DNA of 64,000 bases, taken from assembly GCA_020161435.1 (NCBI GenBank), contig JAIUNV010000005.1:161325-225324 (forward strand). The letters run 5' to 3'. Shown one piece after another: positions 36,064 through 62,631 of this stretch. The notes beneath the pieces were generated by a model that searched no databases, was not told the DNA's origin, and saw only the letters and a program-made list of their open reading frames with translations. The stretch's first letter is position 1. The number at the start of each line of letters is the position of its first letter. Source of the stretch: Bacteroidota bacterium (GTDB lineage Bacteria > Bacteroidota > Bacteroidia > Chitinophagales > Chitinophagaceae). Position numbers and translations under genes: made by a program.

Positions 36064-36231
36064 TCCCCAACAAAAAATATCTGTGCTCCTCCGTTCCTCT
36101 CTGTGAAAATCCGCGTCCCAATAGCCCCCTTTCAGCAAAATCCATTTTATTTGCACCCGAAACAGCGAAGGCCGTTTCAATAGTTCTTTACAATATGGTC
36201 CGGTAGCTCAGCTGGATAGAGCAACTGCCTT

Positions 36232-36870
36232 TAATGAATAGGAGCCTTACGGTAGGAAACAAAACTCCGTAAGTGGATACCACTGTATCGGTGAACGCTT
36301 CGATGATTCGTCATCATGCCAACCCCGAGGAAACTTGAGTTTCACTTTGTATTTTGGAAAGATGATAACCCATCACACTAAAAACAAAGGCGATCTCGGT
36401 GTATTGAAGGCAAAGCTTGATCTCTTCCTGCAAGGATATCTGGTATTGGTACCCGAAACCGAACATGCACCTTTTGATTTGGCCATTTATAAAAATGGTG
36501 AATTCAAAACGGTTCAGGTGAAGTACAGGGCTGTAAACAAACGAGGAGTTATCGAAATTCCGTTTCGTAATTCTTACAGCACTGCAAAGGGAGTAAATAC
36601 TAAAAAAGTCAATAAAGCATTGGTGTCAATCTATGCCGTTTATTGTCCGCAAACAGATACTTGCTATTATTTCAATCCACTTGAATATGGAGAGTCAATT
36701 GCTTTGAGGGTAAATGCATCTGTGAATCATCAGCAAAAAGGAACACACCTGGCTGATGATTTTAAAAAGGTTCCGTAGAGACTATACGTGGTACACCTGC
36801 AATGGTGAAGATATAGTCCAGACCCCAAACCGCACCCATGGTGTGGGCAGCGAAAGCTGTAGCAGGTAAG
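36232..36870 (+). ncRNA. Self-splicing group I intron in tRNA-Arg(UCU)
   Basis: The 5' exon ends in U and the intron ends in G (36870), as group I chemistry requires. TAGGAG at 36239-36244 is an internal guide. Its GAG pairs with exon CUU, giving the U-G wobble at the splice site (P1), and its UAG pairs with the 3' exon CUA (P10). P2 is CTTACGG/CCGTAAG (36246-36252 and 36267-36273). A GATGA-TTCG-TCATC hairpin lies near 36300. P7 is a perfect 7-bp pairing of GACTATA (36780-36786) with TATAGTC (36812-36818) inside the conserved AAGATATAGTCC. P8-like CACC/GGTG and P9-region hairpins, including CAGC-GAAA-GCTG, follow. An endonuclease gene is carried between the 5' half of the core and P7. Confidence 0.92.
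36362..36778 (+). CDS. Intron-encoded PD-(D/E)XK-type homing endonuclease
   Basis: A 138-residue protein encoded inside the group I intron. The ATG at 36362 has GGAAAG just upstream; an earlier TTG is possible but would start within structured intron RNA. The pattern KGDLGVLKAKLDLFLQGYLV, then PFDLAIYKNGEFKTVQVKY, fits the PD-(D/E)XK fold with D11, D39 and Q52-x-K54, where Gln replaces the usual Glu. The same Q-V-K form occurs in the family of nucleases that includes the endonuclease of the Synechocystis tRNA-fMet intron. A homing role, cutting intronless tRNA-Arg genes at the anticodon, is therefore likely. The stop (36776-36778) abuts the P7 strand, so coding and ribozyme core are packed without a gap. 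Confidence 0.85.
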   Translation: MITHHTKNKGDLGVLKAKLDLFLQGYLVLVPETEHAPFDLAIYKNGEFKTVQVKYRAVNKRGVIEIPFRNSYSTAKGVNTKKVNKALVSIYAVYCPQTDTCYYFNPLEYGESIALRVNASVNHQQKGTHLADDFKKVP

Positions 36871-36919
36871 CTAAGCAGTAGGTCATTGGTTCGAATCCAA
36901 TCCGGATCACATGTTGTAC

Positions 36920-36947
36920 AAAACCACCCCAACCGGGTGGTTTTTTT
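36920..36947 (+). terminator. Terminator after split tRNA-Arg
   Basis: AAAACCACCC, loop CAACC, GGGTGGTTTTTTT, starting 11 bases after the tRNA 3' end. Confidence 0.85.
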
Positions 36948-37012
36948 ATGTCCATGCAGTATCAGCAGCATGGCGTAAATTGCATACTGTACACCTGATA
37001 ATCCTACACCAC

Positions 37013-62187: not shown

Positions 62188-62631
62188 ATGGCTAAAGAAA
62201 TCACCGGCTATGTGAAGCTCCAGTGTAAAGGAGGACAAGCCAACCCTGCGCCGCCAATCGGCCCGGCCCTTGGTTCAAAGGGTCTGAACATCATGGAATT
62301 TTGTAAGCAATTCAACGCCCGTACCCAAGATAAAATGGGTAAGGTGCTGCCCGTGTTGATTACTGTTTACAACGACAAATCTTTTGATTTTGTAATTAAG
62401 ACTGCCCCTGCATCTATCCAACTGATGGAAGCCGCCAAGATTCAGAAAGGATCTAAGGAAAGCAACCGTGTAAAGGCTGGTAAGGTAACCTGGGAACAAG
62501 TGGAGGCAATTGCCAAAGACAAAATGCCAGACCTCAACTGCTTCACTATCGAAAGCGCCATGAAAATGGTAGCCGGTACTGCCCGCAGCATGGGTTTGAA
62601 TGTGGAAGGTAAAGCTCCCTGGGAAAATTAA
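62188..62631 (+). CDS. rplK: 50S ribosomal protein L11
   Basis: A 147-residue L11. The N-terminal domain [38 protein letters not shown] and the C-terminal rRNA-binding domain ([33 protein letters not shown], ending in [18 protein letters not shown]) are complete. L11 forms the GTPase-associated stalk base with 23S rRNA. First gene of the visible operon, 28 bases before rplA. Confidence 0.98.

Follow-up and report, generated by a model that had tools for sequence, protein, structure and literature searches.

A putatively mobile group IC3 intron with a homing endonuclease gene in the only detected tRNA-Arg(UCU) gene of a Bacteroidota bacterium

A mobile group IC3 intron with a homing endonuclease gene very probably occupies the only tRNA-Arg(UCU) gene detected in this bacterium, as judged from comparative analysis of a 64,000-nt stretch of its DNA (the window). 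Positions 36197–36231 and 36871–36909 are the halves of one 74-nt tRNA-Arg(UCU), interrupted between U34 and C35. Run on the segment in intron mode, the tRNA finder ARAGORN bore out the original prediction, returning tRNA-Arg(tct) interrupted after nucleotide 35 by an intron of 639 nt; the joined exons were likewise called as tRNA-Arg(tct), and none of 200 dinucleotide shuffles of the segment gave an intron-containing tRNA call. As this mode also called two ordinary tRNAs falsely at other places in the window, the weight rests on comparison between genomes: the insertion lies at the identical nucleotide of tRNA-Arg(UCU) in 12 other genomes. The exon coordinates, intron length and U34|C35 site first proposed proved exact. 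The 5′ exon does end in U (U34) and the intron in G (G36870), as had been read from the sequence, and the terminal G is present in 13 of 13 aligned sequences. Alternative exon joins leave no terminal G on the intron; tRNA-Lys(UUU), which the exons give after a one-base shift, was rejected on this ground. Neither an ordinary tRNA scan nor an Rfam scan at gathering thresholds reported the split tRNA-Arg(UCU) gene. Upstream of the tRNA, an exact TAnnTTTG lies within 70 nt in 9 of the 13 aligned loci, the window copy having one mismatch. Weak Rfam matches nearby to leader and snoRNA families were put down to chance or to the downstream terminator.

Table 1. Features of the interrupted tRNA-Arg(UCU) locus (window positions)
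Feature	Position	Strand	Evidence
Promoter-like octamer TTTATTTG, Bacteroidota type, weak; consensus TAnnTTTG, one mismatch	36146..36153	+	weak evidence
tRNA-Arg(UCU) 5′ exon, last base U34	36197..36231	+	ARAGORN intron mode; same exon in 12 relatives
P1: exon C32-U33-U34 (36229-36231) with guide GAG (36242-36244)	36229..36244	+	13/13 keep the three pairs
Group I intron, IC3-type, 639 nt, last base omegaG 36870	36232..36870	+	ARAGORN; relatives; pair counts
P2 hairpin, GAAA-containing loop	36246..36273	+	6/9 pairs changed on both sides
P3 5′ strand UACCAC, partner 36788-36793	36278..36283	+	5/6 pairs changed on both sides; 100% paired
P4 (36288-36292/36324-36328), P5 (36297-36298/36318-36319), short P5a hairpin	36288..36328	+	alignment pair count
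P6 (36329-36332/36771-36774), loop = endonuclease gene	36329..36774	+	pairs invariant, 13 sequences
Homing endonuclease gene (putative), 138 aa, ATG start, intact	36362..36778	+	PF11645; fold; dN/dS
P7 (36780-36784/36814-36818), around P3 3′ strand (36788-36793) and P8 (36794-36797/36804-36807)	36780..36818	+	
P9 (36830-36836/36840-36846) and P9a (36848-36851/36856-36859), GNRA loop GAAA	36830..36859	+	P9a: 4/4 pairs changed on both sides
tRNA-Arg(UCU) 3′ exon, C35 to discriminator A73, no encoded CCA	36871..36909	+	ARAGORN; relatives
Intrinsic terminator-like hairpin and T run, just 3′ of tRNA	36918..36948	+	read from sequence

The insertion has the conserved anatomy of a group I ribozyme. 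Pairings P1 to P9a were written on an alignment of 13 sequences with the open reading frame removed (A4) and counted, the totals including the tRNA stems: 98.5% of cells were paired, against 85% in shuffles, and 32 pairs were changed on both sides, against 16. The covariation score of 0.39 fell to 0.04–0.06 when one strand was slid. The U34·G wobble at the 5′ splice site is invariant (13/13), and a P10 is possible in which the UAG just 5′ of the guide GAG pairs with exon CUA. The P2, P8 and GNRA-capped P9-type hairpins originally described all recur in the 13-sequence alignment, with paired changes in P2, P8 and P9a. Of the ‘perfect 7-bp P7’, the conservation stands and the length does not: the helix is 5 bp (GACUA/UAGUC), and at the sixth position many relatives have C or A facing an invariant A. 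P7 and P8 are 100% paired, and each shows a paired change in one relative.

Against the Rfam group I model (RF00028), the window copy reaches a non-significant 14.2 bits (E 0.69), because some 430 nt with the endonuclease gene sit in P6. In endonuclease-free relatives the P6 loop is short and the entire introns are 205–283 nt; one such sibling (L044) reaches 40.6 bits (E 4e-9), below the cut-off of 50, and an endonuclease-free Arg(UCU) intron (L077) exceeds it with 57.3 bits. The assignment to IC3, read from alignment A4 and the window anatomy, follows from the absence of a P5abc extension, the host site in a tRNA anticodon loop, and the GNRA-capped P2 and P9; P5(a–d) is absent from IC3 introns (PMC11835236). 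Taken together, the matches of endonuclease-free relatives to RF00028 and the paired changes support the prediction that a Bacteroidota tRNA-Arg(UCU) contains a group I intron. In the proposed mechanism, the intron RNA would fold from P1 to P9a, with the guide UAGGAG pairing with both exons; the ribozyme would bind GTP in P7, cut after U34 and join U34 to C35, so that, as its conserved anatomy implies, the mature UCU anticodon would arise only after self-splicing.

How much depends on this splicing turns on whether the gene is the only UCU tRNA, as the original prediction had pointed out. In the eight-contig assembly, tRNA scans and BLAST turned up no intact tRNA-Arg(UCU): the scans scored 150 of 170 candidates and gave arginine tRNAs with anticodons CCT, CCG and ACG, and BLAST, on which the absence of a second copy also rests, matched the spliced tRNA to the two halves only. 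Nor did a sister genome assembled as one contig, with 99% estimated completeness (G583), contain an intact copy. It carries the same intron in the same place, with 16 differences in 713 nt, all outside the exons and the 3′ core, and flanking DNA that differs by 5–8%. AGA accounts for 87 of 16,760 codons in the long open reading frames of the window. Because no intact UCU copy was found and AGA is in use, the reading of AGA most likely depends on splicing of the intron. Separately, the fragmented genomes of the same genus (G159, G578–G582 and G584) gave no full-length match to tRNA-Arg(UCU); the one among them that was scanned with the intron model, G159, did not match it, and the rest may carry introns that escaped notice or simply have gaps.

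About two-thirds of the intron is taken up by a gene that the original prediction did not include. Its product matches Pfam PDDEXK_5 (PF11645; E 2.5e-29; 102.5 bits against a cut-off of 26.1), and a profile of 13 relatives, searched against solved structures, finds I-Ssp6803I (2OST) as the best match by sequence (E 0.009). In a Foldseek search with the AlphaFold2 model of the 138-aa protein (pLDDT 84), 2OST is again the top match (E 1.7e-10, TM 0.75) at about 20% identity. D39, Q52, V53 and K54 are invariant in 13 of 13 sequences and align with the corresponding stretch of 2OST. Between relatives, dN/dS is about 0.07–0.2, indicating purifying selection, and the gene in the window and its counterpart in the sister genome differ by nine synonymous and four nonsynonymous changes. 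The last codons, GTT CCG TAG, are at the same time the invariant ribozyme core sequence GGTTCCGTAG; the resulting Val-Pro C terminus is found in the aligned set and in the intron copies with an intact gene identified later, and viral relatives end differently. By sequence and predicted fold, the P6 protein is a PD-(D/E)XK homing endonuclease of the I-Ssp6803I type, which would be expected to cut DNA.

Homologous insertions in other Bacteroidota, a point on which the original prediction could be checked, were found at the identical site of the same tRNA. One genome per species was searched with the endonuclease as bait, an approach blind to endonuclease-free introns; it gave 12 relatives, in Longitalea, Niastella, Saprospiraceae, other Bacteroidota and one Exiguobacterium (Bacillota). 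All 12 have tRNA-Arg(UCU) as host, U34|C35 as site, an intron of 621–677 nt and an intact endonuclease gene of 137–138 aa. For a wider survey, whole genomes were scanned with R1, a covariance model of the 3′ core; matches below about 30 bits (also L076) were not relied on. R1 matched in 9 of 197 genomes of the family (seven in Arg(UCU), two in tRNA-Leu(UAA)) and in 28 of 395 genomes of the phylum, with 13 genomes assigned to Arg(UCU) and the remaining matches mostly in Leu(UAA) and a CAU-anticodon tRNA resembling fMet. Among Exiguobacterium genomes it matched in 15 of 19, and in the class of this genus in 23 of 300; every Bacilli locus whose exons were joined is Arg(UCU) with site U34|C35. Three loci that ARAGORN in intron mode assigned to Leu(CAA) (L031–L033) were read by hand as Arg(UCU). 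The window also gave a second intron-model match, at 62449–62580 (25.3 bits), which lies inside an apparent rplK (L11) coding sequence and has no Rfam support; it was discarded as a false positive and serves to calibrate the model.

The survey also touched other introns. Group I introns in tRNA-Leu(UAA) of Bacteroidota (L051, L059, L060, L062 and others) occupy the cyanobacterial site, one of them (L051, 708 nt) with an HNH-type endonuclease gene between the 5′ exon and the core. In a further group (L063–L072 and L078, with exceptions such as L066 and those of L068 type), group I introns lie just 5′ of the CAU anticodon of an fMet-like tRNA in several Bacteroidota genera, and L068 encodes an endonuclease very like I-Ssp6803I. 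In one genome (G462) the Arg(UCU) intron L054 is apparently shifted by two nucleotides, to U36|A37, and its guide reads GGA in place of GAG, which still allows P1 to form with a terminal U·G; alternatively, the host reads as tRNA-Arg(UCG) with the site at U34|C35 and a weaker P1. Another genome (G753) has an endonuclease-free Arg(UCU) intron (L161) followed about 870 nt away by a second intron-like copy with a frame-broken endonuclease gene.

All stages of a homing cycle occur in Bacteroidota and Bacilli. The endonuclease is intact in the window, the sister genome, the 12 relatives, L047, L052, L053 and L054. It is decayed in L045, a 399-nt intron with an internal deletion that takes out the catalytic residues, and survives as remnants in Exiguobacterium and other Bacilli. 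It is absent from L044, L049, L055–L058, L066, L073 and L077, the first of these being a 212-nt intron from the same genus as the carrier L043. The site is empty in a same-genus genome (G081), which has an intact tRNA of 99% identity and flanks that do not match. Invasion would begin with the endonuclease cutting an intronless tRNA-Arg(UCU) gene at the anticodon arm, whereupon repair would copy the intron in; the endonuclease would later decay and its gene be lost, the corresponding sequence states being seen directly.

Outside introns, the closest relatives of the endonuclease are free-standing phage genes. Six phage records contain one, and in the best two, those of Synechococcus phage Sf-FR1 and Acinetobacter phage Herod, the gene lies just 3′ of an intact tRNA-Arg(UCU). 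A first viral scan with a single query sequence found no relatives; a profile scan of viral contigs found 24 more. An intact tRNA-Arg(UCU) lies within 90 nt of 15 of the 18 distinct free-standing viral endonucleases, which are usually about 60 nt downstream of it and in a few cases upstream. A probable sixteenth case is L169, whose adjoining tRNA ARAGORN called Pyl(CUA); read manually, that tRNA is probably Arg(UCU) with a single mismatch in a stem. By a hand count, those viral stretches contain about 63 other tRNAs, one of which is Arg(UCU) (Fisher p 1.5e-12, a value that is a guide only and too small, as the 18 cases partly share ancestry). A model search found no ribozyme core beside the free-standing viral endonucleases, and no relative of the endonuclease was found on plasmids. 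The adjacency suggests that the tRNA-Arg(UCU) gene is the target of the endonuclease; most simply, the enzyme would recognise this gene. Phage and intron endonucleases likely share one DNA target. On one viral contig (L168, 1430–2025), the 5′ and 3′ halves of another tRNA flank an endonuclease gene plus a complete tRNA-Arg(UCU), which jointly appear to split it.

Two other accounts of the locus were weighed against a splicing, mobile intron. The insertion could be dead and the tRNA a pseudogene, with AGA decoded by a different tRNA or an intact copy missing from the assembly. Although the poor RF00028 score of the window copy and the 20 of 170 tRNA candidates left unscored in the genome scan would fit such a state, we consider it very improbable: exons and 3′ core are unchanged from the sister genome across diverged flanks, the core pairs are kept by paired changes, neither this bacterium's assembly nor the single-contig sister yielded an intact UCU tRNA, and AGA codons are in use. 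Hardly more credible is an intron that splices but whose P6 protein is a maturase or vestigial reading frame, no longer a homing endonuclease. A maturase role would also fit a gene that is intact in all 12 relatives found with it as bait and under purifying selection, but introns without the gene (L044, L049 and many in Bacilli) persist at the same site with the core kept, and the protein is therefore unnecessary there for splicing and for keeping the intron; moreover, fold and aligned D39, Q52 and K54 match I-Ssp6803I, and the viral relatives exist without any intron.

The phage association, for its part, could be incidental, with endonucleases gathering in tRNA clusters and the Arg(UCU) neighbour being inherited within one phage lineage. 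Most viral copies do belong to one related group, so the 18 cases are only partly independent; however, the distant copies L166 (Herod), L185, L191 and L168 also adjoin tRNA-Arg(UCU), with varied spacing and on either side. Because distant copies differ in spacing and side, descent of one arrangement is disfavoured, and we regard an incidental link as unlikely.

A shared target of phage and intron endonucleases bears on the origin of the mobile intron. In collaborative homing, a free-standing endonuclease and a naked intron that have one target in common go on to merge (PMC3984707), and a related free-standing endonuclease beside the same gene is what we found in the 15 viral cases. The mobile intron may owe its origin to the entry of such a gene into the P6 loop of an intron that occupied the same site and had no endonuclease. 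We tentatively entertain a larger scheme, which is open to considerable doubt: phage and intron forms would constitute one target-sharing system, a phage endonuclease that already targeted the anticodon arm of tRNA-Arg(UCU) would have been captured in P6 of a naked IC3 intron there, and phages would have spread both across Bacteroidota and Bacilli. In the trees, viral endonucleases fall mostly outside the intron clade, with L168 inside; a topology that unites all viral copies in one clade is not rejected (AU p 0.168), and the trees leave the branching order unsettled.

Introns of this type are known from other bacterial tRNAs. The group IC3 intron of cyanobacterial and plastid tRNA-Leu(UAA) (as in Anabaena) is inserted between nucleotides 34 and 35 and usually has no endonuclease gene. 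The Arg(UCU) intron shares with it the lack of P5abc and the site in the anticodon loop, but differs in its host tRNA and in having such a gene. Proteobacterial group I introns occur in Azoarcus tRNA-Ile(CAU) and Agrobacterium tRNA-Arg(CCU), the latter also in an arginine tRNA, although with anticodon CCU and not UCU; we know of no endonuclease gene in either. The closest parallel is the Synechocystis PCC 6803 tRNA-fMet intron with I-Ssp6803I, a PD-(D/E)XK case of 655 nt and 150 aa (PMC1995217). It too is an anticodon-loop group I intron of similar size, with an endonuclease of the same fold and aligned catalytic residues; the intron described here differs in its host tRNA and phyla, and its endonuclease is only about 20% identical. 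In the cyanophage psbA system, according to Zeng et al. (2009) as cited in PMC3984707, a free-standing endonuclease targets an intron site. The phage endonucleases resemble it in being free-standing and tied to a gene with a proposed intron-site target; they differ in that the presumed target is a tRNA gene, the enzyme is of the PD-(D/E)XK type, a relative is already inside a bacterial intron, and cleavage is putative. Bacterial tRNA group I introns have been described mainly from cyanobacteria and from alpha- and beta-proteobacteria (PMC4033280), and the authors of tRNAscan-SE 2.0, a program not designed to detect them, name group I introns in fMet and Ile2 tRNAs (PMC8450103). In the open-access literature we came across no account of a tRNA-Arg(UCU) with a group I intron; the intron type is known, and it is the host tRNA, the phyla, the spread and the phage link for which that literature yielded no description.

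An essential function, the decoding of AGA, apparently relies on a ribozyme in this bacterium and in many related bacteria, through a gene that goes unreported by a standard tRNA scan and at the Rfam gathering threshold used. Every life stage of a homing endonuclease is found at one nucleotide of one tRNA in two phyla, together with a phage-borne endonuclease adjoining that tRNA. If the capture reading is true, the free-standing enzyme, the naked intron, the composite and the decayed composite would all survive today. The Arg(UCU) intron family may offer a natural test of collaborative homing, with which the question of how mobile introns are assembled becomes testable.
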